A stretch of DNA of 64,000 nucleotides from Thelephora terrestris. Its lineage: Eukaryota; Basidiomycota; Agaricomycetes; Thelephorales; Thelephoraceae. The position numbers and the translations under genes are program-made. Numbering within the stretch: position 1 is the stretch's first letter; the number at the start of each line of letters is the position of its first letter. The stretch covers positions 1,426,001-1,490,000 of the forward strand of contig WIUZ02000009.1 of the NCBI GenBank assembly GCA_015956445.1, read 5' to 3'. A model generated the notes under the pieces. The model searched no databases and had not been told where the DNA came from. It saw nothing but the letters and a program-made list of their open reading frames with translations. Positions 31,519 through 57,500 of this stretch are shown here, one piece after another.

Positions 31519-33501
31519 TGAACTAGCTGAACACTCCGGGTAGTCGGATACCCTAAAAAGAGTGTACAAGCAGTTGAGGTGGGTACCGGTTGAGTGTTGA
31601 GTTCTGTACGACCACCGGAACAGAAGATCTGCTCAGAGATGCCCGAAGATGTCTGGAGAATCGCCGGGGAAGACCGCGACGACTAGAGTAAGCGCGAGAT
31701 TCGAGACAAAGCAGAGGGGGATAGGAACCGAGGTTGCGGAGAGTTGCGATAGAGAATCACCGCGAAGTCGTAAAGTAGCTGAGGTAGGCTTTGGTAGGAG
31801 CAAGAGATAAGACACAGAGAAGCCGAGAACTTGACTTGAGAACTGGAGAGCGAACTGGAGAACTGGAGAACTCGGACTGAAACTGAACTGGGGGATCTAA
31901 GTCGATGCATTCCAGGTTATCTAAGACACAGTATATAAAGGAAACCGAAGACTCTCCTAAATAGGCAGTGTCGAGATAGTCTGTGAGAGAGAAGGGAATG
32001 GAAAAGCGAAACTAAGAGGAGCTAGGTAAGAGGGGTAACTACTAGGGGGGAACGATGACGAAGGGGTGACGACGGCACGAGAGGAAGCCGTGTCATAAAG
32101 GAGAAAACGCAGGGGAACAGGAATCGAGAGTGGAAGATAGCAACGGAGGCAAATGCCCGGAGAACGGAACAGCGCGGGGAATGGAACTGATCGATCGACC
32201 GGGAAGTTCCGATCGATAACACTGGGGGCAAGGGGTCAAATACCCGGTGGGTACATGCTGAACACATTGTGATCACAGTCAATAAGTGATCACAATGTGC
32301 CCAGTGGGGAAAATTTGAATACATTCAAAATGTGCCTGGCCATGTGAGTCCAATGTGCCCAGTGGGCACATTTTGATTGTGATCACAATGTACCCATCAA
32401 TGTGATCTCAATGTGCCCACTGGGGACATTTTGATTGTGATCACAATGTACACATCAATGTGATCTCAATGTGCCTGCTGTGCACATTTTAATTGTGATC
32501 ACAATGTTCCCATCAATGTGTTCTCAATGTACCCAGCTCATTACATAATAGTTTCTTTCACAATGTTGTCCACAATGTGTCCAGCATGTGGCTGAGCCAC
32601 TCATTCAAACTTCTTTCACAAAGTATCCAGTGATGTGTCTAGAATGTGTACAGCCATACACATAGTGATTTCTTTGAAAGCTCATGGTGAAATCAAACAA
32701 TATTGAGATTACATTGTGATTACTTCAAAAGGAACCCCCTGGGGACATTATGGACACATCACTGGGTAATCTTTGAAAGAATTTTGAATGAGTGGCTCAG
32801 CCACATGCTGGACACATTGTGGACAACATTGTGAAAGAAACTATTATGCAATGAGCTGGGTACATTGAGAACACATTGATGGGAACATTGTGGTCACAAT
32901 CAAGGTGTGCACAGCAGGCACATTGAGATCACATTGATGTGTACATTGTGATTGCAATCAAAATGTCCCCAGTGGGCACATTGAGATCACATTGATGGGT
33001 ACATTGTGATCACAATCAAAATGTGCCTACTGGGCACATTGTGATCAATTGTTGACTGTGATCACAATGTGTTCAGCATGTACCCACCGGGTATTTGACC
33101 CCTTGTCCCCAGTGTAAGGAATCGTGGGGATGAGAGCGCAGAACGATGGGATAACCGGAGATCGATGGCGGGAGGAATCGCTAACAATAGATAGCCATGG
33201 CGAAGGGCTAGAACGAGAGTCGAAACGAGGTTGAAAGGTGAGGGGAACGAGGCGTCGGGGATATCAGAGTTCCGGAGGGTCGGATAGCGTGTGGCAGATG
33301 GCAGAACGCGAGGATTCAAAACAGGGTTCCCGAGGGGAGGTGCAAAGCGGGGAAGAATGTCTGAGGAACAATAGAGGCGGTCCGGTGATCAGGGTGAAGG
33401 TTGCCTCGAGGCAGTCACGAGGCCAAGAAGAGTCCGGAACTCAATGGAGTCGAACGACCAATAGGAAGGAATCGGAGATTGAGAGTTTCAACGTCGCGAC
33501 A
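31519..33501. mobile_element. LTR-like insert (TG...CA, 4-base duplication) in the old Copia copy
   Basis: Starts TGAACTAGCTGAAC and ends GTCGCGACA. CCGG stands on both sides (31515-31518 and 33502-33505), and gag-related sequence continues across it. Without the hairpin element nested in it, it is about 1.1 k. TG...CA ends, a short target duplication, no coding region and an internal TATATAAAGG at about 31932 make a solo LTR of another retroelement the simplest reading. Confidence 0.6.
32220..33114. mobile_element. CACTA-like hairpin (foldback) element, copy 1
   Basis: An 895-base near-complete palindrome. Ends are CACTGGGGGCAAGGGGTCA and its inverse (one base different), flanked by TAA on both sides (32217-32219 and 33115-33117). 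The arms are built of repeated blocks around CACAATGTG, ATGTGATC and CCCAGTGGG, so smaller palindromes nest inside the large one. No coding capacity. CACT- ends and a 3-base duplication point to mobilisation by a CACTA-type transposase. Confidence 0.88.
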
Positions 33502-37324: not shown

Positions 37325-37816
37325 ATGTCGGTTGCCATATTTGGCATGTCTACTGATGTTTCGTTTTTAGGTTTTAGGGATTTTATCCAGGCTTCTCGTA
37401 GGGTGTCTCGGTGCAAGTTGGCACATATCGAGACAAACCCTTATGTGACCGAACTCCTTAATAGGGGTGTGGAGTTTGTTACGGAGACCAACAAGACCTT
37501 TAACTCCGTGTTAGAGGCCAGTGTTATCCACACGGGTAACATTGGGTCCATGTTGATGGATGAGGTTGCTCATGTTAATGAACATATTGATGGTCGTCGA
37601 GAAGAGATAGAGAGCTTGGAAGAATGGAAGGGGACTGCGCAAGATGTTCTCCATGGACATGAAGATTCCATTGTTCGGCAGTCTGCGGAGATCGATTTAT
37701 TGAAGGGAGAGTTGGTAACTCTCAAGGACTTAATCCGGGGTCTAGTTTCCCAAACTGGGAGACTGGAAGATGACAAGGTACAGGGACTGGGATTGAAGAT
37801 AATTGATTTTTTCTAA
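37325..37816 (+). CDS. Unknown coiled-coil protein, interrupted by the palindromic element
   Basis: An open frame of 163 codons: an N-terminal MSVAIFGMSTDVSFLGF, then a long heptad-like helical region (VNEHIDGRREEIESLEEW, SAEIDLLKGELVTLKDL). A likely donor (GTACAG, 37777) and acceptor (TTCCTTTAG, 37831) follow, and coding character continues up to the insertion at 37871 and again after 42431. I do not recognise the family. It seems to belong to a mobile element, perhaps the one starting at 33715. A direct repeat of about 30 bases (37080s and 37197-37227) lies upstream. Confidence 0.45.
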   Translation: MSVAIFGMSTDVSFLGFRDFIQASRRVSRCKLAHIETNPYVTELLNRGVEFVTETNKTFNSVLEASVIHTGNIGSMLMDEVAHVNEHIDGRREEIESLEEWKGTAQDVLHGHEDSIVRQSAEIDLLKGELVTLKDLIRGLVSQTGRLEDDKVQGLGLKIIDFF

Positions 37817-37896
37817 CCCTGTTCCTTTAGGTTCGCCTTACCCATCATGTCTTGGAGTTGACTGGAGAAGTGTCACTGTCAGGGTTGTGGGCCTGC

Positions 37897-38520
37897 TTAC
37901 TGTTTGGGGGGCGCTAGAGGATTAGCGGGGTAGGGTGTATCGGGACGGGGTTTGGAGAAAGGAGTTCCTGGGGTAGAAACGAGAGGAGGCGGGATATCAA
38001 GAGCGAGTGGTGACTCGGTTTGATATGGGTGAACGGGTGAGTGGTAGTCTTGGCAGAACTGGCTTAGTTGCTGCACGAAGGGGTCGAAGTCGTGATCGCT
38101 AAGACGTTCAAAGCTGGCGAGGTATTCTATAACCGAGTAAGGTAATTCAGTTGGGATCTCCCACCAAAGTACGATGATAGAAGGGCAATGGGTGTGAACG
38201 TTAGTGGTGAGATGGACACGGGGGGTGGGGAAGTAAAAGGCCGGACTTATACTAAAGTAGACGGTTGCTAGAACGCTCTTAGTAAAGTCAGAGTTCCAGA
38301 GGAACTGATGGTCAGCTCCTAACAGGAAAGGGGGAGTGGTGACTCCGGCGTCAAGAGCGGCAAAAGGACGATAATAGGGGAAATGGGTGAGTAGACCGGC
38401 GGTTCGGTTTACTTGAAGACTCCTGATGAGTTTATACTCCCAGATAGATCTCCTGGCGTCGGGAACGACGGGTCGTTGGACGGGACTAGTGGAGGGGAAA
38501 GGATTAGGGGCACTGAACAT
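37897..38520 (-). CDS. Gene A, left copy (207 aa, unknown)
   Basis: Uninterrupted frame, starting MFSAPNPFPSTSPVQRPVV. Blocks conserved with the right copy: DARRSIWEYKLIRSLQ, TTPPFLLGADHQFLW, and TNVHTHCP with IIVLWW. It ends NPLAPPKQ only 26 bases inside the element end. The leader has a 52-base intron (38539-38590) that is conserved in the other half, and a TATA-like box at 38668-38675. No family recognised; no signal peptide. The conserved Trp/His-rich core suggests a folded domain. Confidence 0.75.
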   Translation of the reverse strand: MFSAPNPFPSTSPVQRPVVPDARRSIWEYKLIRSLQVNRTAGLLTHFPYYRPFAALDAGVTTPPFLLGADHQFLWNSDFTKSVLATVYFSISPAFYFPTPRVHLTTNVHTHCPSIIVLWWEIPTELPYSVIEYLASFERLSDHDFDPFVQQLSQFCQDYHSPVHPYQTESPLALDIPPPLVSTPGTPFSKPRPDTPYPANPLAPPKQ

Positions 38521-39180
38521 ACACTGGCAGGAGGATTCCTGCTTTGAATGAGTCAGAAGAATAAGACGTGAGGAGAATTCCTCAGCTTACTTTGTTTATT
38601 CAAGTTTTGGGTAGAGGAGTACAGAAGAGATTGAGAATGGGGAAAAGAAAGGAACGAACGCTCTTCCTTATATACCCAGTCCTCTACATGATTAGTAATC
38701 ATACAATGAGTCAAACACGAGTCAACATGGTCTGTGCGTAGTTTAGGGCAGGGTAACGGTGTCAGAGGAGTGGGACTTAGGACGACTGATGGTAGACACA
38801 ACTAGGGGAACAATAGGGAGTGAATCGAGAGTAGTTAAATGGGATTTTTCGTGTTTCGTGGTAGCAATAGAAGGACAATGGGGATTTCCCATGATCGATG
38901 GGGAATTCTCAGGTTTCATGGTAGTAATAGAAGAGTGATGGGGATTTCTCTTGATTGATGGGGATTTCTCTGGGTTCGATGGGATCGCGATTGGGGCTAA
39001 GGGTGCGTTTGTCCTAATTGGGATTTAAATGGATAATGGCTCATTGTCTTCCCCTTTTGGCATCTCATGGAGTCAGACGTATATAATCCAGGGGGATTAT
39101 TGGTCTTTTCTTCTCATCGCCTCTTTTCCTCTCCCACAATTACCACTACCATCTTCCCCTCTTAAACACCCTCTACTATT

Positions 39181-39915
39181 ATGTCTGCCTTCGTTGCCAA
39201 CAATGCCTTGCTCAACGCTGCCACCACCCCCTTTGATTTCTCCCCGTCCTTCGAGACGGATGCTCCCTTTGACGTGGAGCAACACTTGTACGACACCCCC
39301 GCCAACATTGCTCAGGACAACCAGGTCGCCGTGGACTTCCTGACCACCCATAATGCTCCTGCTGCGTTCTGGGAGCAGGCTGGGTATGAAGATCCCAACA
39401 AGACTCGTCGATGGGCTCCTGGAGTTACTCCTCTTCAGGACGCGATGGAGCGAGAGAGGGAGGATAGGATTCTCAAGTTGGAGAAGAGGATGGATGTCAT
39501 GTATGTGGTCGTCAACAGTCTTAACGAAGACTTTTCTCACTTTGCCTTGGAACATTGGAAACCTTTCCAGGAATCTTTCCTCCGGTACTTCGGCCGTCAA
39601 TGCCATGGAGCCTACTGCACCGACGCAGCTCCTCACTCCCCCATCGTCCCTCCGCCATCTTCGCGATCAGGGAGTCCCTCTTCCTCAGTCCCCTCCCTGG
39701 AGTCCTGCTCCAATGCGTCAGATGGTGGAGAGGACCCAGAAGAAGCAAGGGCGCAAGAATCCGATGACTCGTACTGGTCAACGTTGTCGTCCCTCCGACA
39801 AGTCACGACAGGTCCGGATGAAGTTGAAGGTGGAAGTAGCGGGTCTCCAGGACCGCTATGGGTACGCATTAGTGAGCGGGGCGTTGACGGATGTGAAGCG
39901 GGAGATGGAAGATAG
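39181..39915 (+). CDS. Gene B, left copy (244-codon frame, unknown)
   Basis: Starts MSAFVANNALLNAATTPFDF after a TATATAA box at 39080-39086. Blocks shared with the right copy: DVEQHLYDTPANIAQDNQVA, WEQAGYEDPN, a coiled-coil-like DAMEREREDRILKLEKRM, and VVVNSLNEDFSHFALE. A Ser/Pro/acidic tail follows. A second, overlapping frame continues to 40078 with a Cys-rich end (HDVLGCRECW, YCPQSVYN) that is also conserved in the other half. How the two frames are used is not known. No family recognised. Confidence 0.6.
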   Translation: MSAFVANNALLNAATTPFDFSPSFETDAPFDVEQHLYDTPANIAQDNQVAVDFLTTHNAPAAFWEQAGYEDPNKTRRWAPGVTPLQDAMEREREDRILKLEKRMDVMYVVVNSLNEDFSHFALEHWKPFQESFLRYFGRQCHGAYCTDAAPHSPIVPPPSSRSGSPSSSVPSLESCSNASDGGEDPEEARAQESDDSYWSTLSSLRQVTTGPDEVEGGSSGSPGPLWVRISERGVDGCEAGDGR

Positions 39916-40278
39916 TCTGTACCATGACGTGTTAGGGTGCAGGGAGTGTTGGAGGGACCCGACGACTCGAGTGATGTCGTACTGTCCGCAGAGCGTATAT
40001 AACCCTCACCATTTCGCTCATTGTTGTCCTTTTGCTCAGGCTTGTGCCTGTGAAGTAGATCCTTTCGTCTTGGTTTGAGTTCGTAGTTGTTTGTCGTTCC
40101 CCCTGTACTATTAGCTTTGCGAATAAGATCAATGTCTTGAATTACTTGCGCGATCTTGGCTACTATGTCACGCGTTTGTGACAGTCACGAACACGTGACA
40201 TAGTACAGAAGATCACACAAGTAATTCAGGATATTGGTTTAATTCGTCATAATAATACAAAATGAGTAAAGAAAAGAA

Positions 40279-41149
40279 TTAAACTAGTAGAAAGGGGTCC
40301 ACCTGACAATCGCACTGAGAGGAAGAAATGCACCGATGAGTGAAATGAGACAGATTGTATACGCTCTTCGAACAGTACGTATACTTCCTCGACACCAGAT
40401 CAAGTTGGCAATCCCAACAACCCAACACGTCATGGTCCAATCCCTCGTCCATCTCCTGCCTCACACTCCCCATCGCATCACTCACTAACTTGGACCCATA
40501 CTTATCCTGAAGCTTTGCTATCTCCAGCTTCAGCCACATTCGAACTTGGCGACTCTGGCTCGACAGGCGACACCGCTGTCCAGAACGAGTCATCGGACTC
40601 TTGTGCGGCTTCTTCGATGACCTCTCCACCATCTGAGGAACTGGAACAGGACTCCAGGGAGGGGACTGAGGGAGAGGAACTCCCCGATCCCGGTGGAGTC
40701 GGAGGGACGACGGGGGAGGACTGAGGAGGGTCGGTGCAGTAAGCCCCTCGACACTGGTGACCGAAATATTGGAAGAGAGATGCCTGGAAAGGTCCCCAAT
40801 ATTCCAAGGCAAAGTGAGAAAAGTCTTCGTTAAGGCTGTTGACGATCACATACATGAGGTCCACCCGTTCCTCCAACTTAGCAATCCTACTCTCCCGCTC
40901 TCGCTCCATAGCGTCCAACAGAGGCGAAACGCCAGGGGCACGCATTACAGTTCGGTTGGGGTCCTCATACCCAGCCTGATCCCAGAACTGTGGAGGAGCG
41001 TGGTGGGCGGTCAGGAAATCCATGGCAACCCTGTTGTCATGGGCAATATTGGCGGGGGAGTTGTACAAGTGCTGTTCGACGTCATAGGGGGTGTCGACCT
41101 CGAAAGGGGAGGCAGAGACGAAAGAGGTAGTGGCGCCATTGAGGGACAT
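40279..41149 (-). CDS. Gene B, right copy (two overlapping conserved frames)
   Basis: The start at 41149 (MSLNGATTSFVSASPF) is chosen by alignment with the left copy. The first frame runs to 40502 with the shared blocks DVEQHLYNSPANIAHDNRVA and VIVNSLNEDFSHFALE. The second frame, ending at 40279, carries the Cys-rich end (HDVLGCWDCQ, YCSKSVYN). The same two-frame layout in both halves suggests it is a real property of the gene. Function unknown. Confidence 0.55.
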
Positions 41150-41787
41150 AATTTCAAAGATTTGCTGAGGAGGAATTGTTGTAGAAGGGTGGGAGTGGAA
41201 AAGAGATGATGAGGGGAAAAGACCAAGAAGTCCCACAGCCTAAATATGTCCAGGTCAATGGGACGCCCAAAAGGGTAACAACAACGTATCATTATTCATT
41301 GTTATCCCAGAAAGGATAAACAAACCCTCAGCCCCAATCAGTCCCATCAAATCTAAGAGAAATCCCCATCACTCTTCTATTACTACCATGAAACCTGGGA
41401 ATTCCCCAGCAATCATGGGAAATCCCCATCATCCTTCTATTACTACCACGAAACATGAGAAATCCCCATTGCACCCGTTTGACTTTTCCCTCATTGTTCC
41501 CCTATTTGTATTTACCATCAATCATCCTAAGTCCCACTTCCCTGACTCAAACCTCCTGCCCTAAACTACACACAGACCATGTTGATTCGCGTTTAACTCA
41601 TTGTATGATTACTAATCATGTAGAGGATTGGGTATATAAGGAAGAGTGTTCACTCCTTTCTTTTCCCCATTCTCAATCTCTTCTGTACTCTTCTACCAAC
41701 TGCTCAATAAACAAAGTAAGCTGAGGAATTCTCCTCACGCCTTACTCTTCATCTGACTCATTCAAGCAGGAATTCTCCTGCCAGTGT

Positions 41788-42411
41788 ATGTTCAGTGCTC
41801 CTAACCCCTTCCCCTCTACCAGTCCTATTCAATGCCCTGTCATACCTGATGCTCGTCGCTCTATCTGGGAGTATAAACTCATCAGAAGTCTTCAGCTTAA
41901 TAGAACCTCCGGTCTATTAGCTCACCACCCCTACTATCGCCCCTTCTCTGCTCTCGACGCCGGAGTGACCACTCCCCCATTCCTACTCGGAGCTGATCAT
42001 CAGTTTCTTTGGAGATCTGATCTTACTGAGAGCGTGCTAGCCACTGTCTACTTCAGTATCAGTCCATCCTTCTATTTTCCCACCGCTTGTATTCATCTTA
42101 CTACCAACGTTCATACTCATTGTCCGGCTATCATTGTTCTCTGGTGGGATATCCCTACTGATTTACCTCTCACTGTTATAGAGTATCTCAACAGCTTCGA
42201 GCAACTCAGCGGTCAAGACTTCGAACTGTTCATTCAACATCTAGTTGAATTTTGCAGCGACTACAACTCGCCCATCCATCCCTATCAATTCAAGTCTCCA
42301 CTCACTCTTGATATTCCCCCACCTCTCACTTCCACCCCAGGAACTCCTTTCTCCAAACCCCGCCCCAATACACCCTACCCCGCTAATCCTCTAGCGCCCC
42401 ACAAACAGTAA
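41788..42411 (+). CDS. Gene A, right copy (207 aa, unknown)
   Basis: Same length as the left copy and clearly related along its whole length (MFSAPNPFPSTSPIQCPVIP, SIWEYKLIRSLQLNRT, PPFLLGADHQFLWRSD, ending NPLAPHKQ). TATATAAG at 41633-41640, a conserved 54-base leader intron at 41716-41769 (GTAAGC...AAGCAG), and the stop codon 20 bases before the element end. A transcript must therefore run into flanking DNA for its polyadenylation signal, which is odd. Confidence 0.75.
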   Translation: MFSAPNPFPSTSPIQCPVIPDARRSIWEYKLIRSLQLNRTSGLLAHHPYYRPFSALDAGVTTPPFLLGADHQFLWRSDLTESVLATVYFSISPSFYFPTACIHLTTNVHTHCPAIIVLWWDIPTDLPLTVIEYLNSFEQLSGQDFELFIQHLVEFCSDYNSPIHPYQFKSPLTLDIPPPLTSTPGTPFSKPRPNTPYPANPLAPHKQ

Positions 42412-42699
42412 GCAGGCCTTCAACCCTGACAAGAAGTCCAGGATCTTCAGAGGAGGTGTCAGGAGCCGGAGTTTCAAGTTGAGGAAGAAGAGCCAATGAT
42501 TCCGGAACAGGCCGAGTCTCCACCTGCTCGGTTCGTAGCTTCAGTCAAAGGTCGTTTGGTGCCGATCAATGATGAAGTTATCGAGATTTAAGAGGGAGAG
42601 TTTTACCAGAACGTCGGAGTTGTCTGTTGGGACACTCCTCATCCTGGTAGGAGGATGACTCCTCTTATCACAGTCACGGATATGACCCTGCCAAGGAAC

Positions 42700-43650
42700 C
42701 AATGACATGCCTCCATTCTCTGGAGTACTCGTCGGCCACATTCCCTACGTCCCTTTCCCTCGGGATGCTTTGCAATGTTTTGCAATGTTTCTATACTCTC
42801 TACACCTCCCTACCCCTCCCTATGCATCCCTATACTTCCCTACATATCCGTTTATCTCCCTTCACCTCACTACTCCCTTCCCTATACTAACCTACTCGTC
42901 CTGATGCTTCACGACTTTCCCGATGTTTTGGTATCCTCTCTATCTCTCGCTACCCCCCCCTACCTCCCTATATTCCTCCCAACACTACACCATTTGCAAC
43001 CCCTCCCTATATCTTCTCCCAACTTCCCTATACCTTCGCAATATCTCCCTACACCATCCCCCTTGATCCCTCGATCCCTATGCTCAATCACTTCCTTTTG
43101 GTTCATTTCTCAACCACATCTCTTTCCTTGGTTGTACATTCCCTTTGATCCCTCGCCCTCCCTATGTCATAGACTTGTCATTAGGTCTTTTTACATCATT
43201 TAGTTTGTTCCCTCTTGCTTCCTTTGTTCTCAGAGCCTCCTAGATTAGTATATAAGCCTCTGTATTCGATAGACTCAGTGGAGATCAATCCAGGGGACTG
43301 ATTCCCATGTTTTCCTCTCCCTATTGTTCTCCTCTCGTTGTTGTTGTCTCCCTATAGTCTCCTGCATCTTCCCTATAGTCTCCTGCATCTTCCCTATTGT
43401 TCTCGTTGTCATACCTGCGTCCCTGCGTTCTCATTGTCGTCTCTAGCGTCCTGTCATCATCCCAAAGATCCCGACCTCCCGCAGTTCTCGTCGTTGTCCC
43501 AAAGTTTTCCCTCATTGCTCCCTCGTCTGTTTCATTGATTCCTCTCTGTTATCTTTAGTTATCTTTAGTTCCCTCTTGTTATCTACATCTCCCTACATGT
43601 CCCAACGTTCCCGACATTTCCCGACATTTCCCTACAGTTCCCTACGTGTC
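42700..43650. repeat. Degenerate CCCTA/CCCTAT-rich pyrimidine tract
   Basis: Nearly 1 k of imperfect repeats of units such as TCCCTATA and TCTCCCTA. Its character mirrors, in inverse orientation, the CT-rich minus strand at 33850-34860. Open frames across it are compositional. Confidence 0.7.
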
Positions 43651-43769
43651 CCTACGGAGCTAGGAGGCATCGTACGACCAAGAACCACCTTCATCGACGT
43701 TGACAGGGTACTCCATCTTCTCCCCATCGGACCTTAACCCACATAGCCCCTGTTCACCGATGGCCAGCA

Positions 43770-44288: not shown

Positions 44289-44641
44289 TGTTGAACCGAA
44301 GGTCTGTGCCCGGCAACGGGTCAACCGGCTCCACCGCTTCGTGCGAGAGCCGATGCCGGAGAGCGCTGTATAAGCGGCCCGAAGGGACGGTGTCACATCA
44401 GTGACCCGATCGATCGGTATGACGCGCGCGTGCCTTAAGCCGCCGCACGGACCATGCATCAGTCACACTGTATAGATGTGACGTTAATAGAGTAGATAGT
44501 ATATATACCCCTCATGTGTCCATAGATCAATCAATCGCTTCTCTCTCTCTCTCTCCCACTTGCACTACTATATCTTCCCCTCTCAGGTAAGAACTAGAGT
44601 ACGCCATGTAGTAGTATAGAATATACTCTACCTGCTCAACA
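44289..44641 (+). repeat. 5' LTR of the young Copia element
   Basis: 353 bases, TGTTGAACCG...CTCAACA, with a TATATATA box at about 44499-44506. Identical to 54188-54540. Confidence 0.97.
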
Positions 44642-44657
44642 GGTTATGAGCCCGGGC
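44642..44657 (+). promoter_or_regulatory. Primer-binding site, half-tRNA initiator Met type
   Basis: GGTTATGAGCCCGGGC directly follows the 5' LTR. It is complementary to the anticodon stem-loop of initiator tRNA-Met (GGGCTCATAACC with the CAT anticodon), not to a tRNA 3' end. Priming by an initiator-Met half-tRNA is known for Drosophila copia. The old copy has the diverged equivalent at 30597. Confidence 0.8.
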
Positions 44658-45053
44658 TACGCCCTGTGTTCCAGGCTGCGCCTCTGTGGCTGCGCTGTGA
44701 ACAGGCTCTAATCTTACCTTAGTGCGCCCTCTGTGGCTGCCACTGCGCTATCCACTGCGCAGGAAGGGGACTTAGAACAAAAAGTCAAAACCCCAAAAGG
44801 GGATGAAACAGTGATTGGCTAAGCTGAGCACAACACACATTCGTAGACCCCATAAGGGGAGGGTAGTCGATTAACATCTGCCGACGGTGTGGACTGAGGC
44901 AACATGCAATAAACCTCTCACTAAAGTAATCCTTAAAAGGGAAAGGCTAATTCTTCCCTCTTTCATTGCATTTGGCATAGAAGCGTTCATTAACTGATGA
45001 CTCTTATTTTTTTGGGCGTAGGCACTTCCACCCCCCAAAAAAACCAAAGAAAC

Positions 45054-48000
45054 ATGTCGTCTCAGCTTACCTCTCTCGTCCCCGTCCTTGAAGGTCCCAA
45101 CTATCAGCGATGGGCCCCTGCCGTCAGAAGCTTCTTGATGGCACAAGGACAGTGGAGACTGATGAAGAAGGGAAAGCCCACCAAAACGGTACGACCATAT
45201 GTAGCAGCTGTCCCTGCCACCGATGATGCTGAAGAAATTCCGGCACAGGAGGGCGGTGAAGACATTGACGAAGACGCGCTCGAAGCATGGGAGGAAAACA
45301 ATTCCAAAGCCCTCGGAAATATATTCCTGAGGCTAAGCCCTGATATCCAGGCAAAACACAAGACCGAAGAGGACGCTTGGGCCTTGTATCAGGCAATCGA
45401 TGCGGAATATGGGAAACCCGGCGTAATGGGGATCTACTCAGAGTTCAAAAGCGCTCTGGACGTACAGATCCCCGGAAATGCGGACCCCATCCCGGCGATA
45501 GACAAAATCATGGCCCATTTTGGTCGACTTGCTGAAGCCAATGCAGCAGTCCCAGATTTCATCAAAGCCATGATGATACTCTCCCGGATGCCCCCTGCCT
45601 ACGATTACCTTGCCCAGATCCTCTGCCAGGCCGACGACATCGGTAAAGTCCAGATCGATGAGCTAAGGAAAATGGTCAAACTGGCCTGGGAGCAGAAGTC
45701 CAGCTCCCGTCGCTCCGGACAACAAGCACAGAAGTTGTCCAACGTACAGCGCGCCCCTGGGAACCCAAATTTCCAGCAGCAGCAGCAGCAGCACGACGGG
45801 AGCCAGCCCCAGGGCCAAGGCCGAGGACGAAACCGTTGAGAACAAAGAGGAGGTAGAGGAAGATTCCAGCAACAGGCTCAGCAAACTGACGAGTCTCAAA
45901 TGCCACCTCCCCCTCCACAACCTCCGGTTCCCTCCAGCTCTAACATCTCGGTCTCGGATTATGGTTTTGCCTCCATGGCGGCTTTTCCCATACGCCATCC
46001 CCCCGTCCATCGTCAAGGCACAGGGGCCCCTTCCTTCTACCCCTCCGTACAGGAGGCTAGGGACCTCGCAGCACGCATAAGCGTGAAACCTTCGATTGAG
46101 ACCCTAAAAAGGCTGGAACGCTCTTATGAGCAGACAATCGATCCTCGCCCCCGCAAAAAGGCACGTACCCCGCCGGGCGAGGATGAAGTAAGCCTGGGAT
46201 GGTCGGATGATGAGATGGATGTTGCCCCCCCTGCGTCGGTTGCCGGTCCGTCTGGCCTTGGTGGAAGGTATGAAACAAATTTAGTGTTGAGTAACGAAAC
46301 TAACGACTCCACAGCACCTGAAGATAAGTCTAGGTCTTCAGTAGTAGCTTCCAAATATATTTGTTTTACCCTGTCTGCCCCGAGTGAAACTGAAGCTGTG
46401 TGGATGCTCGATTCCGGAGCATCCCGGCACTTTACTTTTGACATAAACGACTTCGTGGAGTACGAGGCTATTGAGTCCATTCCTTTAAGGACAGCGACCA
46501 GCTTCACGACGATTATTGGTAAAGGAACAGTGATCCTCCACATAAACGAAAAGGCCGTTCGATTAAGTCCTGTCTATCATGTCCCAGACATCTCCCATAG
46601 GCTGCTATCCCTTGGTCAGTTCCTCAGAAGCGGACTCCTCTCGAGGGGGAGTGCTCGCGAAATCTCACTCTATGAGGAAGAAACAGAACTTCTTACCTTC
46701 TACCCTCGAACCGAGGATGACAGTATTTACGTCATCAAAACCCTCCTCGGAGCGCAACTTACTGCTGCTAAAATTGAGACCATTTATAGTGCTGATTTTG
46801 AAATCATGCACCGCCGACTGGCTCACCCCTCAAAGGAAGTGATCCAAAAGGCTGGGAAACATGTCAAGGATTTTCCTCATGTCGAAATCCCAAAAGAGCA
46901 CCTCTGCACTGGATGTGCGCAAGGAAAGATGACAAATAAAACCTTTCCCCCATCCAACACCAGAGCAAGTGCCCCTTTCGAGCTGATCCATTCGGATCTA
47001 AAAACCTTCCCCATTGAGTCCTATCGCAAGTACAAGTACTCAATCGTCTTCTATGACGACTATACCTCACACGCCTGGACCATGAATTTGCGCACTAAGG
47101 ACGCTGCACTTATGGCTACCAGGCACTTCCTGGCTATGGTAGAAACCAAGTACCAGAAGAGAGTACGTCGGTGGATGTCCGATGCCGGGGGGGAGTACAC
47201 GTCCCTCACATTTACGACGATGCTCAAGGAAAAAGGGATTGAGATCCTCCAATCTATTCCGCATGCACACCAACAGAACGGTCGCGCGGAAAGGATCATT
47301 CGAACATTGATGGATAAGGCAGAATCCATGAGATTACAGGCTTGCCTCCCTCAATCTTGGTGGGAATTCGCCCTTGACCACGCAACTCACGTTTACAATC
47401 GAATGCCGAACCGTCGCCTAAATTGGCAGACTCCATTCCAACTATTGAATGGAAGTAAGCCTTCAATTGACCATCTTCGGGTCCTCGGCTGCGGAGCCTA
47501 CGTCTTCATCCCGGAAGAAGTACGGATAAACAAACTCGCGCCCCGATCAGAATTGATGACCTACCTAGGTACTCACCCGGGAGGAAAAGGATGGATCTTT
47601 ATGCGCGGACCTAACGACATCATTTTCTCCGCTGCTCAGGCCACCTTCGATGAGTTGCACTTTCCAAAGTGCCCAACTGCCAGTGTGCGGCGAAACACAC
47701 GGCTGCAGTCTACTGCGCCACCCCCACCCAGTCATCACTGTCATAAGGATGGTGACTGCCAGTGTCCCCTTCCAGGAGGACAAGAGGAAGATGACGCAGC
47801 GCGTCCCAAACCTACCCCCAAGCCTTCCCCAAAAGGCAAGGAACGTGCTATTGAGCTAGCACCACGGCCGCAGACGCCGGTGCAATCTAGAGCGCCCAGT
47901 TCGGAGCCGCCGAGATCGCCTACACCCAGCTCTAGCTCTGATTCCGGTCCTGAGGATGCACCACCCGCCCCACCAACGATTGTGCCTCCGTCACCTATTA

Positions 48001-48155
48001 AGACTCGGAGGCCTCAGCGTGAGCGGAAAGTACCGGCCAAGCCTGGCAATGTTTACGGCAGTAAACATCCGGTAGAGATAATTAAGTCTACCCGGCGTAT
48101 GAAGGATTGGAAGAAGGTTGTCGGAGATTTTTCCGTAGCACCTAGGCGCGGGTGA
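45054..48155 (+). pseudogene. Copia gag and pol 5' half (gag, protease, integrase)
   Basis: The gag-like part starts MSSQLTSLVPVLEGPNYQRW and ends in a Gln-rich stretch. The protease motif MLDSGASRHFT lies at about 46405. The GAG-pre-integrase block has HRRLAHPSKE and CTGCAQGKM. The integrase core shows HSDLKTFP, SDAGGEYTS and HQQNGRAERIIRTLMD (DDE). A Pro/Ser-rich spacer follows. Not intact as one frame. Confidence 0.9.
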
Positions 48156-48482
48156 AGTTCAGGAGCAATTCCCGGACCTAGCACGCGGCCACTTCCTGAG
48201 AGAGAATCCTCCGCTGAGGAAGAGACTGAAGCGGCGTCAGAGTCCGAAGATGAGGTTGAGAAGTCCGTTGAACCATCCGGATTCACCACCCCTGAGGAAG
48301 ACACTGACGCCCTTCTAGCTAGGCTATGCCGGGAAGGGGGAGTAGAACTCCAAAACCTCTTAATTTCGAAAGCCGTCTCACCAACCGCCAACGAAAAAAC
48401 TCCAAAAGAATGGAAATACCGAGACATCGCCACACTACCACAGGCAGAGCTCGAGGAATGGAGGACAGCCTGCAACGAAGAG

Positions 48483-49020
48483 TTGGAAGCTCTTCGCAGG
48501 CGCAAAGTATACGACCTGGTAGAGCGCCCTCGAGGCCGCAAGGTTATCAAAAACCGCTGGGTATTCGACCAGAAACCAGATGGTCGCAAGAAAGCCCGCT
48601 TAGTAGCAAAAGGCTTCTCACAGGTTGAGGGAATGGACTACGATGCCGTATTCTCCCCCGTTGTCCGATTCGAGACAGTGCGCCTAATATTTGCGATGGC
48701 CGCCCTCGGAGGATGGGTCCTCAAAGGACTTGATGTTCGAAATGCGTACCTATACGGCGAACTCGACGAGGAAATATACATGGAACAACCAGAGGGATTC
48801 GTAGCTCCAGGAAAAGAGACTTATGTTCTCCGCTTAAAGCGTGCCCTCTACGGACTGAAACAAGCCGGGCTCGCATGGTGGCGAGCCCTGAAACAGTCCA
48901 TGGAAAAGCTCGGATTCAAATCCTTGAGCTCAGATGCTGGGATCTTCATCTACCAGGATAAAGATGGAAGATTTGTAATTGCGTTAATCTACGTAGACGA
49001 TGCCATCTTTACCGGGCCCC
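48483..49020 (+). pseudogene. Copia reverse transcriptase, first part
   Basis: Shows ARLVAKGFSQVEGMDYDAVF, LDVRNAYLYGELDEEIYMEQ, RALYGLKQAGLAWW and the catalytic YVDDA. It ends at the TGTCAGG-ended insert; the remaining part is at 53190-54111. Confidence 0.9.
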
Positions 49021-49340
49021 TGTCAGGAACATGGTATTTTTAAACTTTTTATAACACGCTCTTTCTTCGAACTCTTCTTACCATTTCTTATGTTTTGAAT
49101 GCTTCACATTCCTTATCCATCACACCAATCATTCGAAACACACAAACGCGCATACATTCACGGCAATACGGAACAACTGGCTATACAATGCTTATACAAC
49201 GTCCTCAAAAGTCGACTCTATCTACGGCAGGCCTCGTGATCATCACCCTTCCATCCCGGAGATCGTAGTGCTGGCCCCTCCTCGCAAGGACCTCCCCGAA
49301 CATGGCGTCACCATCTTCGGCACTCAGCTGAACGACTAGT

Positions 49341-51788
49341 TCAAGCCGATAGGAAGAGACTCCTTCGAGCGAACCGATCAGCCTCCCAGATGTCACCGAA
49401 CTCTGGAACACCTGGTCCCACATCTCCATCACCGGGTGACTGCTCGACAGCACTATCGACGTAGTCGGCGAGCGACCCTCCGTCTCCCTCGTCACCCCCC
49501 TGGGTGGGATCCTCTCTGGCGAGTCGAAGCTCGTGGCGAAGCTGGATCTCCGACTCGACCTGTCGGTAGGGACGGTTGACCCGATAGCGGAACTCTCGTC
49601 CCCCACCTCGACCAGACTGGTCACCATCCGATTCAACTGGACGCGGGTATGGATTAGCCGATGGAGCCATGCGATGAGCAACACGGCGTCGAGAGCGTTT
49701 ACAACGCTGCCCTGTTGTCACCGGACGTACCTCTATGGCCCTCGGAGCATCTTCGGCCCGGTCTACCTCCATGACCTCGTCCTCGATCTTGACCAGCTGA
49801 CTGATCGGTTGCAACGGGCAACACAGACAGTTCTCCTTGTCGGACTCGGCCAACGTAGAAGCCGGAGCCGGAGTCGGGACGGGAACCGCATTCTCGATCG
49901 GAGGCGTCGCATAGGACGACGGGTTAGGCGATGGGAGTACCACCTCGTCGGCGTACTCCAGCTCGAACGGAACATCGGCAGTCCCCTGACCAACCAACTT
50001 CGGACCCTCCTTGCAGTTGCAGGTCTTATCACTGGGGGCAAGGGGTCACTTACCCAGCGATTACATTGTGATTACATTGTGATTTTTTAGACAATGTGTC
50101 CAGCCTGTGGCCAGGAGGTACATGCTGAGTTCTTTTACAAAGTACCCATCAATGTGACCACAATGTGGCCAGTGGATCCATCTTGATCACTTTTACAAAG
50201 TACCCATCAATTCGATCACAATGTGCCCTGTGGGTCCATGCAGGATACATTGTAAAAGTATCCATCAAAGTGGCCACTGGGCACTTTGTGAAAGAAACCC
50301 CTGGGTTCTTTCACAATTTTGCTTACAATGTGTCCAGCATACACCTGAGCCACTCATTCAAAGTTCTTTCATAAAGTATCCAGTAATGTGTCCACGAAGT
50401 ATTCAACCAGATACTCAGTGGTTTCTTTGAGAGTTTGTTGTGAAATCCAACCACATTGAGAGTTCATTGTGAAAACATTAAGAAGAACCTCCTGGGGACA
50501 TTGTGGTCACATTGCTGGTTACTTTTTGAAAGAACTCTCAATGAGTGGCTCAGGCACCCAGTAGGATAAATTGTAAACAATATTGTGAAAGAAAACCCTG
50601 GTTTCTTTCACAAAGTGCCCAGTGGCCACTTTGATGGATACTTTTACAATGTATCTTGCATGGACCTACAGGGCACATTGTGATCGAATTGATGGGTACT
50701 TTGTAAAAGTGATAAAGATGGACCCACTGGCCACATTGTGGTCACATTGATGGGTACTTTGTAAAAGAACTCAGCATGTACCTCCTGGCCACAGGCTGGA
50801 CACATTGTCTAAAAAATCACAATGTAATCACAATGTAATCGCTGGGTAAGTGACCCCTTGCCCCCAGTGTATCCTGCAAGGAAGCGACCTGTGCGGTCAA
50901 CACGGCCACCACGTCTTCGAGCTGTTCCGTCTAGGAAATGTCAGCTTCCATCATTCTAAACAAATGATGAAAGCGGCATTACCTTTGCATCCCTCCTGGC
51001 CAACGCCCCCTTAATGTTGTTATCCCTAACCTTCAGCCCGGCAATCAACTCTTGATGGTTAGCGACCATTGCTTCCAATGCCTCGTTCGTTCCCTGCTGG
51101 AAGGCGGCCAGAGTCTCCTTCATCTGAAGACCCTCCGCCGACAGACGTAGGACGTCTGCCTTCGCCTCCTTCACCTCGCGCTCCAAACGTTCAACCTAGG
51201 CAGTTTGGTTAGTCGAGAGTCATACTCGAATATCCAAACGGAGAACCTACTTTGCTCTCCCCCTCCCTAACGAGCGACCACAACAACGAGGTGGCGGCAG
51301 TGGCATGGCGGACAGCCCGAGGAACGGTTGCTCCGTGCTCCAACAGGTCCTGATCGTAGATCCCCCGTTGCAGGGTGTACCAGAGCTCCTTCTTGATCGG
51401 GTGCTCCAACTCCCCGAACCTACCCCTCATTCGGAAGACCACCTTCTCGGCGATCATGGTCCGGACCCAGAGCTCATCGTCCCAGGTCAATCCCATCAAA
51501 TGAGGGATCGTCTCCCTAAGACGTTCGGCGTCCACCTCGTTGACAATCTCCAAAATCTATAAGCCGTTAGCTCAACGTCTAAAGCCGATGCTGTACGACC
51601 TGTACCTAGAGGAAGGAGTTAGCGCTAATACAAGAAGCCCTAGCTCTCCCCCATACCTGATCATCCGTGGTATAGGGAGTCCCAGCCGCACAGGCGTAGG
51701 ACTTGCGGGCAGCGACACGACGGTCGATGCGAGAGATGGTGGAGATGCCGTTGGCGACCTTGTAGGTATGGTTGTTGGGGAAGGACAT
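49341..51788 (-). CDS. Unknown coiled-coil protein of the nested element
   Basis: Minus-strand coding pieces in order: 51788-51657 (SFPNNHTYKVANGISTISRI), about 51556-51251 (LRETIPHLMGLTWDDELWV, then GELEHPIKKELWYTLQRGIY), about 51195-50980 (a coiled coil, VKEAKADVLRLSAEGLQMKE), and 50029-49341 (a Pro/acidic/Arg-rich tail). Introns of the usual size fit between the first pieces. The hairpin element at 50030-50869 lies between the third and last pieces. The layout of structured head, central coiled coil and disordered tail recalls gene B of the palindromic element and the protein at 37325, though sequences are not clearly alike. Function unknown. Confidence 0.5.
50030..50869. mobile_element. 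CACTA-like hairpin (foldback) element, copy 2
   Basis: 840 bases, ends CACTGGGGGCAAGGGGTCA and exact inverse, flanked by TAT on both sides (50027-50029 and 50870-50872). A near-complete palindrome with the same kind of internal blocks (CACAATGTG, CCCAGTGG, TTTACAAAGTACCCATC). The interior has diverged from copy 1 while the ends are kept. No coding capacity. Confidence 0.9.
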
Positions 51789-51849
51789 GTTTTGGTAAGA
51801 TGATGGGGAAGTTGCTGGTGTTGCTGATCAAGGATGGCTCCAAGAAGAC

Positions 51850-53189
51850 GTCCTTCTTATAGCCTAGATCGGTGATCCTTCACGTGACCTACCTCGACGA
51901 ACCTCATTGGTCCGGGTCACATCAACTTCCGCCACTGTACCATCATCGTTGGCTTACTACATCAAGCTGACACCTCGGCCCGCGGGACGGCCTTGGAAGA
52001 ACTTCGTTCCGGAACGCCTAGAACGCGCGTGCACTAAAAATAGGTCTCAAGACCCTGATGACCCCTTTATGACATCATGAACCCCTTTTTATGACCCCTC
52101 ATGACTTTACGATTACAATCAACCCTGGACCCTGGAACACACACGTGGGCACGGGGTATCAACATTTGGACACTGTGCTTCTAATCGGATAGTAACCCTA
52201 TCTGATCTAGTTGCGCTTTGGAAGCAGAGTAGGCCCGAGCCGAGAACGGCGGCCGAAGAATATAATCCCTGGTGCCACTTAGGAAGAACGATATTCCCAG
52301 GTGCTATGCCTAATCAAGACTAGGTCTGATCAAGCGATTACGGTTGCAACTCCCAGGTTACTGCCTGTCCGTTGGTATCATACCACCTACCGACAACAAG
52401 GGATGTGTAGAGTTCCTTCGATCTCTAGCCAATCACAGAAGCTCAGAGACGGTGCTCACCTGACCCTTGGGTGTGGTCTAGATTCAGGTACGAACTTTCA
52501 TGACCCATGCCCCTATTTCTTTTAGGACTAGTGTTATCCTTACCCCTATGTTTCATGCGGACATTCCTTATCTTTTATGCAATCCTTCACACGCTAGTAA
52601 GGCCCTTTGTCCTTTATCTTCCCACGCGTCACATTGTTCGCTTCCCTTACTTAGCGTTCTCACACTCTTTATCTCCCTTTGTTCTGGACTTGATAAGGGT
52701 ATATTAGGGTATTGACGTCATGGCCACTCCTTTAGTATAAGTAGCAACTGTGGCTGTATCGTAGTACCTTAGTTTTGTTACCTCAGGAAATCCTCTGCCC
52801 TTCTCAGCCCAGTTGCAGTTAAGGACAAGTCAGAGTTTCTTGTTTGATCCAAGACATCCCCCATCTGCTCTCCCTCCCGCTCTGCGCATCGGCTGCGCCT
52901 CGTAACTATAGAACCCCAGCGTTCATATTAGAACACCTCGAGCGTCCAGTCGATCACCTGGTGGAGTCATCAATCCTGTTGTAGAGATAAACCCTTGCGT
53001 GTTAAACCGAACGAAGTACGGTTTAGGTTGGGTTTCTCTTTAGGATCTCGACCTGACTTGTAGTGACCTCGGACAACCTACCGGAAGAATAGAGACGTGA
53101 TCGTTCTCTCACAAGCTAGTTGGACTAGTGAGTACTCTGCGGAGTCGGCTCAGTGCACTGGTAGTTGTTGGGGTAGAGTGGCCCTGACA
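51850..53189 (+). other. Right part of the nested element, no gene assigned
   Basis: Holds a promoter-like TAGTATAAGTAGC near 52730 and CT-rich stretches, but no open frame with coding character that I can support. Confidence 0.4.
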
Positions 53190-54111
53190 GCCCCACACAG
53201 CGCTTACAGAGCAGCTCAAGGGGGAGTTTATGAAGATATGGGAAACCAGGGATTTAGGGGACCTAACTGATTTCCTCCGCATGAGGATCACCCGACATGG
53301 CAGCAAGATCTCCATAGATCAATGCGCCTACCTCCAAACGGTCCTTGAGCGATGTGGAATGCAAAATGCTAAAGTTGCAGCAACCCCTCTCCCGGCCGGG
53401 TATGTGCCGACTCCGTCGACAGAGGTAGCATGCCCGGAAAGACGAAGCAGGTTCCAAACCATAATTGGTTCCTTACTATACCTCATGCTGGGTACCCGAC
53501 CAGATATCGCCTTTGCGGTCACCAAACTTGCGCAATATGCTGCAAACCCATCAAAGGAGCACGTTGAGAAAGCGCTGTATATCTGCCGCTATTTAATCGG
53601 GACTTCCAAATATCGATTAACCTATGACGGAGATTCACGGGAAGGTATCTCAGCCTGTACCGACTCAGACTGGGCTTCAGACCCCACTCAGAGACGATCC
53701 CAAAGCGGATATTTTGTCCGAATGGCAAAAGGGCTCATCTCATGGACCTCAAGAGCACAGAAAACCATTGCACTGTCGTCCACTGAGGCTGAATACATGG
53801 CGCTATCCGATTGTAGCCGCCAAGTAGTCTGGATGCATACCCTTCTGGGGGAGCTCGGCTATGACCTTAAAGCCATCCCAATCTGCGGAGATAACCAGGG
53901 CTCGATCTTTATCGCCTCAAACCCGGTTACTGAAAAGAGGTCGAAACACATCGACATCCGCTATCATTATATTCGCGAGGTCATCAATGATGGATGTGTG
54001 GTAGTGTATTTCATTCCCGGAGATGACAATCCCGCGGATCTCCTGACAAAGAACCTTGGGGTCGTCAAACTCAGAAAATTTAGAGATGCCTTAGGCCTTG
54101 AATTCTTCTGA
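53190..54111 (+). pseudogene. Copia reverse transcriptase end and RNase H
   Basis: Shows LKGEFMKIWETRDLGDLTDF-like sequence, LGTRPDIAFAVTKLAQYA, then the RNase H blocks TDSDWASDPTQRRSQSGYF and LSSTEAEYMALSDCSRQVVW, and the end HIDIRYHYIREVI and DDNPADLLTK. Typical Copia C-terminus. Confidence 0.92.
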
Positions 54112-54175
54112 GCACATACCTCCAACTTACTACAGTCCAGTTCCCACCAATGAAGTTATACAGGGAGCTGTACTT

Positions 54176-54187
54176 AGTAAGGGGGAG
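54176..54187 (+). promoter_or_regulatory. Polypurine tract of the young Copia element
   Basis: AGTAAGGGGGAG immediately before the 3' LTR; the usual plus-strand priming site. Confidence 0.85.
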
Positions 54188-54540
54188 TGTTGAACCGAAG
54201 GTCTGTGCCCGGCAACGGGTCAACCGGCTCCACCGCTTCGTGCGAGAGCCGATGCCGGAGAGCGCTGTATAAGCGGCCCGAAGGGACGGTGTCACATCAG
54301 TGACCCGATCGATCGGTATGACGCGCGCGTGCCTTAAGCCGCCGCACGGACCATGCATCAGTCACACTGTATAGATGTGACGTTAATAGAGTAGATAGTA
54401 TATATACCCCTCATGTGTCCATAGATCAATCAATCGCTTCTCTCTCTCTCTCTCCCACTTGCACTACTATATCTTCCCCTCTCAGGTAAGAACTAGAGTA
54501 CGCCATGTAGTAGTATAGAATATACTCTACCTGCTCAACA
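54188..54540 (+). repeat. 3' LTR of the young Copia element
   Basis: 353 bases, identical to the 5' LTR, followed by the TCCCG duplication. Confidence 0.97.
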
Positions 54541-57500
54541 TCCCGGTGATCAGCGATGTCAAGCGGCGTATTACTCACCATACGGATCACCTCAGGTCAA
54601 CGTTGAGCAGCAATCGCGAGGATCGAAAACCGCCGAAGGACCGCTGACGGATGGCAACGAGGATGAGGCGTCTGATCTAGAGACTTGCGAGATCATAACG
54701 GCACGTTGCATGCACCTGAATATCAGAATCGCGCCAGCTGTTACCATTGTCGTGGTGGGTACCATTCCAGGTGCGCGTCAAGTGTGTACACTAAGGTTTT
54801 TGATACAGCCCACGGCCCGTCACGTCAAGAACAGGGAGCCCTGACGGGGTCTCACCCGGACGCCAAGTCACATGTTCCGTGTATATTGCCCCTGCACTTT
54901 CCAGCGTGGGGGTGCATTGGATGTAAAGATTAGCAAGACGGAGTTTTGTAAGCCCACGAACGGCAGAGATTCGGAAGGAGGTCGCGGCGCATTTCTGAAA
55001 CGACGGCTGGCACGTGCCACCGTGGAGGAGGGTTGGGGACCGGCATGGTCACTGGTGGCGGTCGATCGCATCCGGCGTGAACTGCGCGGGCACATGCCAC
55101 ATGTAGTGTGACTTCTGCGTACATTTATAGGCACTCAAGTCTCCGAATCTTAATTCATCCGCGTTCAAAATCCAATCGTGACCTGCGTACATCAACATCG
55201 AACATACCGGCGCACTTCAAGGCAGCATGGCGGGGTGGGTGGGTCAATTGAGCCACCATAATATGTGTGTATGAACACGTCTGTCGCGTTCTTTGACTGC
55301 TCTGTTCGGTTTGAAGTGAGCAGATTCGGTGGAAACTCGTGATTTTATAGGCTGGAATCCAGCCTTGAATTCAGAGGCGAGGAGGACGCGATATAGAAGG
55401 GGACGATACCTAGGAGAACGACGCCTGATTTCACCCCATCCCCGACTTCATCACGGGGGATACTGGATCGGACTATCGTGAGTTGGCGCACTTGGTAAGC
55501 GTCCCTATGCAACCTGAATTACAGCATTTATCGAATGGCTCTAGTACTAGAAATTAGGAAGGATCGAGGATCTAATCGTTTGGACCTTCAAGCTTCAAGG
55601 TTTGGGTGTTGGGCTCCCTTTTGGCGCTTTACAGACCCCTGCTCGCGGTCTGCCCCGTCGTGATCTGCCCCCAGGCTCTTGCTGATCCCGCGTTTCTTTC
55701 CTTGATTAGGGTTAACGCGTTTCGCTCCGCTATCGACACCCGAGTGAGGCATCCCTGAGCCGTTTTTCCCCCCAGTTACTAGTTGATCCGCAACCTTGTC
55801 CTCTATCCAACCCGGCTTCTCCAATGCCGCTTCAAACAGGTCAATCACCTCCTGCGGTGACACCAAGGGTTCTAAGCTTGCGTCAGAGGCCGTTATCTCA
55901 AACTGTACCTTCGCTGCTCACCCAGTTGACCATTCTGCTCGGCACTCTGGCTCTTATCAAGGTTCCTGAAAAGCACCCAGAGATCCCAGAACAACTCATT
56001 GAACGGCTTGCAGGCAAATTTTACATCGCAGATGATGTTCTTGTTCCGGTACATGTGTAGTTTCCCTGCGCCACCCATTGTGATTTCGCTGCCGTCTAGC
56101 AGTGGACACTGCTGGTCAAAGATGTATTCCATGGGAATCCTACCTGGTTGATCGTGCCTGACCCAGTGAAGTGCCGTCCACATGAGGACGAAAAAATGCG
56201 ACTCGAGATCGTCGGTTATTGCGTGACGAGACCCGGGATTAGTGAGCAATTTGGTGGACATGAACTGCCAGGTTCCCTGTAGATAGACGTAAAAACCGAT
56301 GTTGTCGGACGTGAAAGCTTTCCCACCGTCCGAGGCCCCTCCAAATTCTCACAAATGTCAACACCTCGACATAGATCCCAGTCGTTCAGCCTCCCCTCGT
56401 CATCAAGACCAATCATGACATTCCCAGGGCTTGCATCCCTGTGGAAGAGGTCAGCGTCTGAAAATGCGGCCGAGCATGCTGCATAGGTAGTACGGTCTCA
56501 GATCAGTGGAGAATTCGGTGGGCAATTGAGTAAACCCCAACCTTTGAGTGAGTGTGACATCACCAGGACGAGATGCTTCGAATTTGAGAAATCCGAGAGC
56601 GGTCTGCATAACTCCGCCTGCACCAATCGATAATGAACACGTCCTCGTACTTTGGTATCAAGCGAGACAAACAGACATGCCAGACGGTGAGTCAACCCTC
56701 GTTGTGCCCCTTGTACACTCGTAGTTTCCGTAGGCGTGAGGGCTACCGTGCCATAGTAGTGGTCGATAGGGGTGGTCGGAACGACATCGGATGCGTGCTT
56801 GAACTTGACCAAGTAAGGGACTTTGGCCTTGAACAGCTTCTCGTACCACACGTGCTCGGGTTCGATCCCTGGCACATCGGGGCGCCACATGTCCTTGAGA
56901 AAAACCCACTCCTTCGTAGATAGATCCAGAGCCACGTGTCCTCGAGTACACCGGCCCACAATTCCCAGGTTATAGTCCAAAGCTTTCCCAACGATGTAAT
57001 ATGAGACCGTGTTGTCCGGATTGTGGACTCCGATTTGGTGTCGTGGGTAGATGTTGCGATCTCCGATGCTGGACTTCAGTGATTCGACACTGATCTCCGT
57101 CGCAGCAGCCTCGAACATTTTTATTTGCTCTGGCGTGGCGGGAACAGCGGTGGGATCCAGACCACGCTGCTCGGGTGTCAGCTGGTTGAACCGCCGAAGA
57201 AAGTCGATGACCAGATCGGGGCGTTGAGAGCAGTCGATCCCGGCGGAGACGACCACGCCTTCTCTGTCCCAACGGATGAAACGGGCCTTCTTTCCGCAGA
57301 TGACCAGGCTGAAGGCAAACAGCCTGTGCTGATAAGCGAGTTGATTAGTCGCGTACAGGAGGCATTGGTCGCGGGTTTCATTGCCGTTGATCGAACACCG
57401 CTCCTGCATTCCGCCATCGGGGAGGTCACAAAATGGGTCACTTTGCGTGTCGTGCTTGAGCTCGACGAACAATTCCATGCGGATGAATGACGCTTCCGCG

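Follow-up and report, generated by a model that had tools for sequence, protein, structure and literature searches.

Within a 64,000-nt stretch of the Thelephora terrestris genome (contig WIUZ02000009.1, positions 1,426,001 to 1,490,000; hereafter the window, whose positions serve as coordinates throughout), we analysed a 4.56-kb feature with inverted halves and found it to consist of two copies of one transposon family, the left, younger unit (winL) having landed, in reverse orientation, in the terminal 6 bp of the right, older unit (winR) (Table 1). The original prediction for this DNA had described a single palindromic mobile element carrying two diverged copies of an unrecognised gene pair. 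While the inverted halves (the junction is at 40183/40184) and the AGAAG repeats on both flanks proved correct, the single element did not: two ordinary units are present, each with its own target duplication, and rather than merely lying side by side they are nested, winL sitting inside the terminus of winR.

Two nested copies of one transposon family

The AGAAG pair is the target duplication of winR. A second, inner 5-bp duplication, GTCAC, flanks winL, and two separate insertions must therefore have taken place. When winL and one GTCAC are removed in silico, winR is recovered as AGAAG-TGTCACGAACACGTGACATAG...CCCTGACA-AGAAG, and its restored end, TGTCACGAACACGTGACATAGT, is of the type seen in single copies. 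winR was inserted first; winL followed, in opposite orientation, into the terminal dyad of winR. The two inverted halves are about 75–76% alike overall, and winR is 79% identical to one further copy (L027_159) and 73–76% identical to the other 21 copies compared. That the feature is a genuine foldback (palindromic) element moving as a 4.56-kb whole, which AGAAG on both outer sides and the inverted halves would fit, was rejected in view of the inner duplication, the end restored upon removal, the many single units elsewhere, and halves that are 24–25% diverged and come from different lineages. Unit-in-unit interruptions of this family also occur at L022, L024 and G000:C2:1344337-1348862, and self-insertion seems to be recurrent.

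The unit is about 2.3 kb long, has the ends TGTCAGGG...GTGACA and 5-bp target duplications, and carries the divergent genes A and B around a central non-coding region; only TGTCA/TGACA (about 5 bp) is common, as inverted similarity, to both ends. Single-half versions of the feature were sought across the T. terrestris genome (40.6 Mb, 60 contigs), and complete single units were found elsewhere. Among 31 distinct units with both ends recognisable at the loci examined (L023 and L024, for example, lack one and fall outside this set), 27 have a perfect 5-bp duplication, for which the chance expectation is about 1 in 1024, and two more match at 4 of 5 positions; the remaining two are L016, which has a mutated left tip, and winR, where the nested insertion has moved the duplication partner away. 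The mobility claimed by the original prediction is thereby upheld.

With the left half as DNA query, at least 52 genome matches were obtained, many of them full-length (40 of 400 candidates scored). Allowing up to 3 mismatches, we counted 313 left ends, 307 A leaders, 313 B cores and 280 right ends, the reversed-pattern controls giving 0, 0, 8 and 0, respectively. Because distant parts of the unit occur in about equal counts, internally deleted derivatives look rare, and the counts support, without proving, the view that nearly all copies are full length. A systematic sample, every tenth of 100 listed exact left ends, comprised 10 loci, eight of which have both ends (2222–2317 bp) and seven of these eight a perfect duplication. 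Intactness is nevertheless qualified on three counts: because the family itself served to design the end patterns, very divergent or deleted copies are under-counted; a 207-codon A is present at only 6 of the 10 sampled loci; and B, or the overlapping frame B' described below, is broken at several of them.

Table 1. Positions of the two units and their parts in the window
Feature	Position	Strand
Outer target duplication AGAAG of winR, left copy	37866..37870	.
Detached 6-bp tip of winR, TGTCAC	37871..37876	-
Target duplication GTCAC of winL, left copy, within the detached winR tip	37872-37876	
winL, 2307 bp, TGTCAGGG...GTGACA	37877..40183	+
Gene A of winL, 207 codons	37897..38520	-
Leader intron of A, winL (GTAAG...GCAG), splice sites within short hairpins	38539..38590	-
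TATA box of A, winL (TATATAAGGAAGA)	38668..38675	-
60-bp tandem repeat between the divergent genes of winL	38853..38982	.
Gene B of winL, intron-retained frame, 244 codons	39181..39915	+
Candidate alternative intron of B, winL, 70 nt (GTATGT...CCTTTCCAG); removal gives second frame	39501..39570	+
Second exon of spliced B, winL (275-aa product, Cys/His-rich C-terminus); overlaps B frame to 39915	39571..40078	+
Right terminal dyad of winL, TGTCACG-CGTT-TGTGACA	40166..40183	+
Target duplication GTCAC of winL, right copy	40184..40188	.
Remainder of winR (winR is 2249 bp minus insertion)	40189..42431	-
Gene B of winR: retained frame of 215 codons at 40505-41149; spliced product of 266 aa, with its end near 40279	40279..41149	-
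TATA box of A, winR	41633..41639	+
Leader intron of A, winR	41716..41769	+
Gene A of winR, 207 codons	41788..42411	+
Outer target duplication AGAAG of winR, right copy	42432..42436	.

Two genes under purifying selection

As had been predicted, gene A has exactly 207 codons in both halves, ends 20 bases from the TGTCAGGG end of its unit and is preceded in both by a TATA box and a leader intron; gene B reads toward the centre. A 207-codon A is present in 17 of 23 copies, and in a tblastn search with the A protein (P0010) 144 of the best 150 scored matches (378 candidates; the set was selected by similarity) are free of stops in the aligned part. The leader intron is readable in all 23 copies, and is 51–57 nt long in 29 leaders gathered by a pattern that requires the intron signals. 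Donor and acceptor fall in separate candidate hairpins, with 97.4% of the pair cells standard. In the intron hairpin, compensatory double changes occur three times, every one of them confined to a single sequence; 1 of 500 shuffles reaches this number, and slid structures have at most one such pair. Less favourable to the hairpins is the covariation score, 0.063, which two slid structures exceed (0.073 and 0.067). The acceptor hairpin is almost invariant.

We calculated ratios of non-synonymous to synonymous divergence (dN/dS) as medians over 23 copies, leaving out pairs whose dS did not exceed 0.02 or could not be computed. The medians are 0.075 for A (253 pairs), 0.061 for the N-terminal part of B (246 pairs) and 0.058 for the tail of B' (214 pairs), with median dS at 0.85–0.97, and in blocks of A from 20 copies conservation is 0.68–0.81 at third codon positions and 0.91–1.00 at the other two. 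A and B are thus kept by strong purifying selection between copies. The proposal that both copies in the window have been under selection stands insofar as winL and winR compare at a dN/dS of 0.119 for A and 0.165 for the N-terminal part of B; what does not stand is its setting, as the selection belongs to a family of about 300 copies and not to a palindromic pair. The ratios call for some caution. The opposite-strand control frame of A is also low, at 0.156, so the ratio alone is not frame-specific, while the third-position pattern is; a dS of about 0.9 is close to saturation; and the part of the retained B frame that overlaps B' has a dN/dS of 0.85, so that the case for its constraint comes mostly from the lowered synonymous rate in B'. 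With A and B under selection and part counts about equal, a miniature inverted-repeat transposable element, i.e. a non-coding deletion derivative, was ruled out.

Gene B appears to encode two products. Near 39629 the constrained frame switches from the B frame to the next one (B'), both being open to 39915 in winL, and about 100 codons are apparently read in two frames. Synonymous divergence of B' is 0.33 in this overlap versus 0.97 in the tail, as expected where bases are read twice. A candidate intron would account for the switch: an interval of exactly 70 nt in 30 of 30 copies, with GTATGT (24/30), GTACGT (5/30) or GTACAT (1/30) as donor and YAG as acceptor in all 30. At the acceptor, glutamine is always encoded by CAG (30/30), versus 60 CAG and 74 CAA in the upstream exon. 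Removal of the 70 nt joins the N-terminus of B to B', yielding a frame of 266–277 aa in 20 of 30 copies; in winL the retained and spliced forms would have the first 107 residues in common, with a conserved Cys/His cluster at the end of the spliced one. These patterns support, short of proof, alternative splicing of B over the 70-nt intron. Two features argue for restraint: the spliced frame is complete in those 20 copies only, and the donor GT falls within a nearly invariant Met-Tyr pair, its conservation being partly forced by coding, which makes the donor weaker evidence than the acceptor. A +1 ribosomal frameshift, for which TCCCC near the frame switch is available in 30/30 copies, is now ranked second to the intron. 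An internal start was rejected: the candidate codon is ATG in 11/30, ACG in 11/30 and neither in 8/30.

That the genes are unrecognised was confirmed, inasmuch as neither A nor B has a Pfam or NCBIfam match over the cut-off, and for A no match of note was obtained among PDB sequences, folds or BFVD. Several matches below threshold are not claimed: a dehydrogenase model for the A of winR (E 0.041), two models matching one A member each (best E 0.068), one PDB chain for the A profile (E 0.29) and Fn3_ELFN for a B frame of winR (E 0.21). The predicted model of A is of moderate quality (predicted local distance difference test, pLDDT, 71.9) and would make A a compact alpha/beta protein with one helix, five strands and two helices; that of B is poor (pLDDT 55.6). 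The idea of a ubiquitin-conjugating (E2/UBC) fold for A gained no clear support: compared with three partial E2s encoded in the T. terrestris genome, A had an hhalign probability of 0.1, and the sole E2-like entry in the Foldseek search was Atg10 (rank 9, E 0.72, template-modelling score 0.20). A viral origin was likewise not supported, as no relative was found in viral_contigs and the best BFVD match has an E of 0.099. No relatives of P0010 were found in genome_contigs, and in protein searches the relatives of A and B with a named organism come from T. terrestris only, those of A reaching down to 37% identity. In the accessible part of the literature on Thelephora transposable elements, fungal 5-bp duplications and TGTCAGG ends, mostly from non-subscription journals, we found no title describing this family.

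Diversity and movement of the units

The copies look young, in that target duplications are nearly all intact, yet diverse: most differ by 10–18%, and their make-up appears mosaic. The nearest relative of each of 30 copies is 76–89% alike when gaps are counted as differences (identities of pairs with L031 are lowered by that copy's own insertion), and at most 90% alike without gaps among 23 copies; the best full-length genome match of winL is at 83% (40 of 400 candidates scored). The argument for youth is an indirect one, as intact duplications without a close sister could also reflect a large unsampled pool of source lineages. Distances in the A and N-terminal B blocks are uncorrelated (r of -0.01 and -0.07), the two halves of A correlate at 0.58, and 8 of 435 pairs contain stretches of at least 300 bp at 97% or more despite 72–89% overall identity. 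This supports, but does not prove, recombination of units with one another; correlations of 0.29–0.38 between the A and B' blocks show, to the contrary, that some linkage is left. Part of the diversity may also stem from a large pool of old source lineages.

For the movement of the units we lean, on balance, towards a DNA-level transposon that relies for joining on an integrase-type 5-bp enzyme, probably acting in trans, while A and B would serve as accessory proteins that favour their own element in cis. Movement as DNA is suggested by the retained leader intron and by divergent transcripts of which neither could cover the whole unit; the TGTCA...TGACA ends would be joined to the target by a DDE enzyme of integrase type, with a stagger of 5 bp. 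Supply of this enzyme in trans seems to us somewhat the better bet, ranked above its being encoded by A or B, which we hold to be rather doubtful, because an apparently unrelated family (element 2) shares TGTCAGG ends and 5-bp duplications. A and B may in turn act with cis preference (end-binding, donor-complex or anti-silencing proteins are examples), and this would account for the rare spread of decayed or deleted units.

Element 2 is found in the window at 49021-53189, with the ends TGTCAGGAACATGG...GGCCCTGACA, the 5-bp duplication GCCCC and a length of about 3.3 kb without its nested insert. Its terminal type is TGTCAGGA...CCTGACA, with 5-bp duplications of its own at three sites, and it has at least 135 genome matches (38 of 909 candidates scored). 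While its TGTCAGG/CCTGACA ends and duplications resemble those of the A/B unit, it differs in size and in that, in three copies, open pieces with a coding pattern lie on the minus strand only; these look like exons of one gene. No A match falls at the window copy among the best 150, and one frame of element 2 matches B' marginally (E 0.34), a similarity that we do not claim. Two candidates for an autonomous long version of the A/B unit, L029 (5.68 kb) and L030 (5.54 kb), turned out to be ordinary units with element 2 nested inside.

Supply in trans meets two difficulties. No autonomous partner was found: none of 112 over-cut-off rve matches (144 in total) lies between A units less than 15 kb apart (best 150 A matches), the ends of Gypsy elements being unread; and pure trans action on the ends predicts common internal deletions and decay of A and B, neither of which the counts show to a large degree. 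Alternatively, A and/or spliced B would themselves be an unrecognised recombinase that cuts and joins the TGTCA ends, making the unit autonomous, with A as a compact alpha/beta protein and B as a coiled-coil protein with a Cys/His-rich C-terminus. We regard this as unlikely, even though parts of both genes are about as numerous as the ends, dN/dS is about 0.06–0.08 for both genes, neither protein has a Pfam or NCBIfam match over the cut-off, A has no PDB or BFVD match of note, and we encountered no larger relative with a known transposase. It sits poorly with the single nearly invariant acidic residue, D70, in alignment A3 of A (13 rows, several of them fragments), with the moderate and poor models, and with element 2, whose ends and duplication length are alike but which has only the marginal similarity to B and no A match at its window copy among the best 150. 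More speculative still is the proposal that A and alternatively spliced B constitute a machinery unrelated to DDE, tyrosine, serine and HUH recombinases, which would found a superfamily of TGTCAGG-ended, 5-bp-duplicating fungal elements, inter-copy recombination keeping a hyperdiverse, largely coding-intact set in one genome.

Very improbable, in our view, is that the units are solo long terminal repeats (LTRs) of a retrotransposon with long, gene-carrying LTRs. TG...CA termini and 5-bp duplications are of LTR type, and the Copia element at 44289-54540 is alike in this respect (TGTTGA...TCAACA, TCCCG); still, 27 of 31 units have their own perfect duplication and would all have to be solo, and 0 of 46 unit pairs less than 15 kb apart (best 150 A matches) enclose any of the 112 rve matches. 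The unit is, moreover, filled by two divergent genes, one with a leader intron, and 0 of 435 pairs are near-identical, unlike the LTRs of one insertion.

As a rule, DNA transposons leave a genome full of deleted copies with dead genes, the transposase acting on any matching end. Some 300 units, nearly all seemingly full length, with two genes under strong purifying selection and no recognisable enzyme offer an unusual natural case in which to ask how an element can favour its own genes. A catalytic A or B would define a new class of enzyme; otherwise the two would be a well-preserved instance of accessory proteins needed for movement by another's enzyme.

Several repeats surround the pair. winL and winR lie beside or inside a coiled-coil-like open frame (37325-37816) that, by eye, seems to resume at about 42432-42590 and may be a further repeat gene. 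Degenerate 10-bp tandem tracts of the CTCCCTACAC and CTACATTTCC types follow at 42796-42873 and 43583-43655. The Copia element has identical 353-bp LTRs and a reverse transcriptase frame split by element 2. Element 2 itself contains an 840-bp insert (50031-50870) that is its own reverse complement at 86% and whose repeats resemble, by eye, the 58-bp tandem arrays at 32286-33051. The middle of the window is flanked by a region of about 3.7 kb that is present twice, as diverged direct copies at 6836-10511 and 54541-58281 (pieces 88–90% alike).

Comparison with known systems

Helper proteins that are encoded by an element and distinct from its catalytic transposase exist in VANDAL (VANC) and Spm (TnpA), families that include autonomous members with a recognised transposase. 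The accessory role proposed for A and B would be of this type, a parallel drawn by description and with no sequence similarity claimed; the A/B family differs in that no autonomous member with a recognised transposase was found.

Plavaka (CMCT) elements, transposons of mushrooms, are present in the T. terrestris genome, with 132 matches to PF18759. PlavakaA has TGT..ACA termini, a likeness to the A/B unit, and Plavaka duplications are 2–3 bp long (PMC12730594), versus 5 bp in the unit; on this difference we rejected Plavaka as enzyme donor. Neither A nor B matches the PF18759 model, and no TGTCA...TGACA pairs with matching 5-mers were found at 12 Plavaka loci within 1.5 kb per side, beyond which the ends may lie.

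The closest parallels in end structure are Ginger2/TDD and the Gypsy-type integrases. Ginger2/TDD elements have TGTNR termini and duplications of 4–5 bp, 5 bp in TDD-4/5 (PMC2836005), to which the TGTCA ends of the unit and its perfect 5-bp duplications correspond. The unit differs in its inverted repeat of about 5 bp, compared with 50–180 bp in Ginger2, in duplications that show no RTATAY target, and in that Pfam recognised no H2C2/DDE integrase-like protein among the A and B products. With these differences in mind, the termini and the duplication type of the unit fit integrase-like enzymes.

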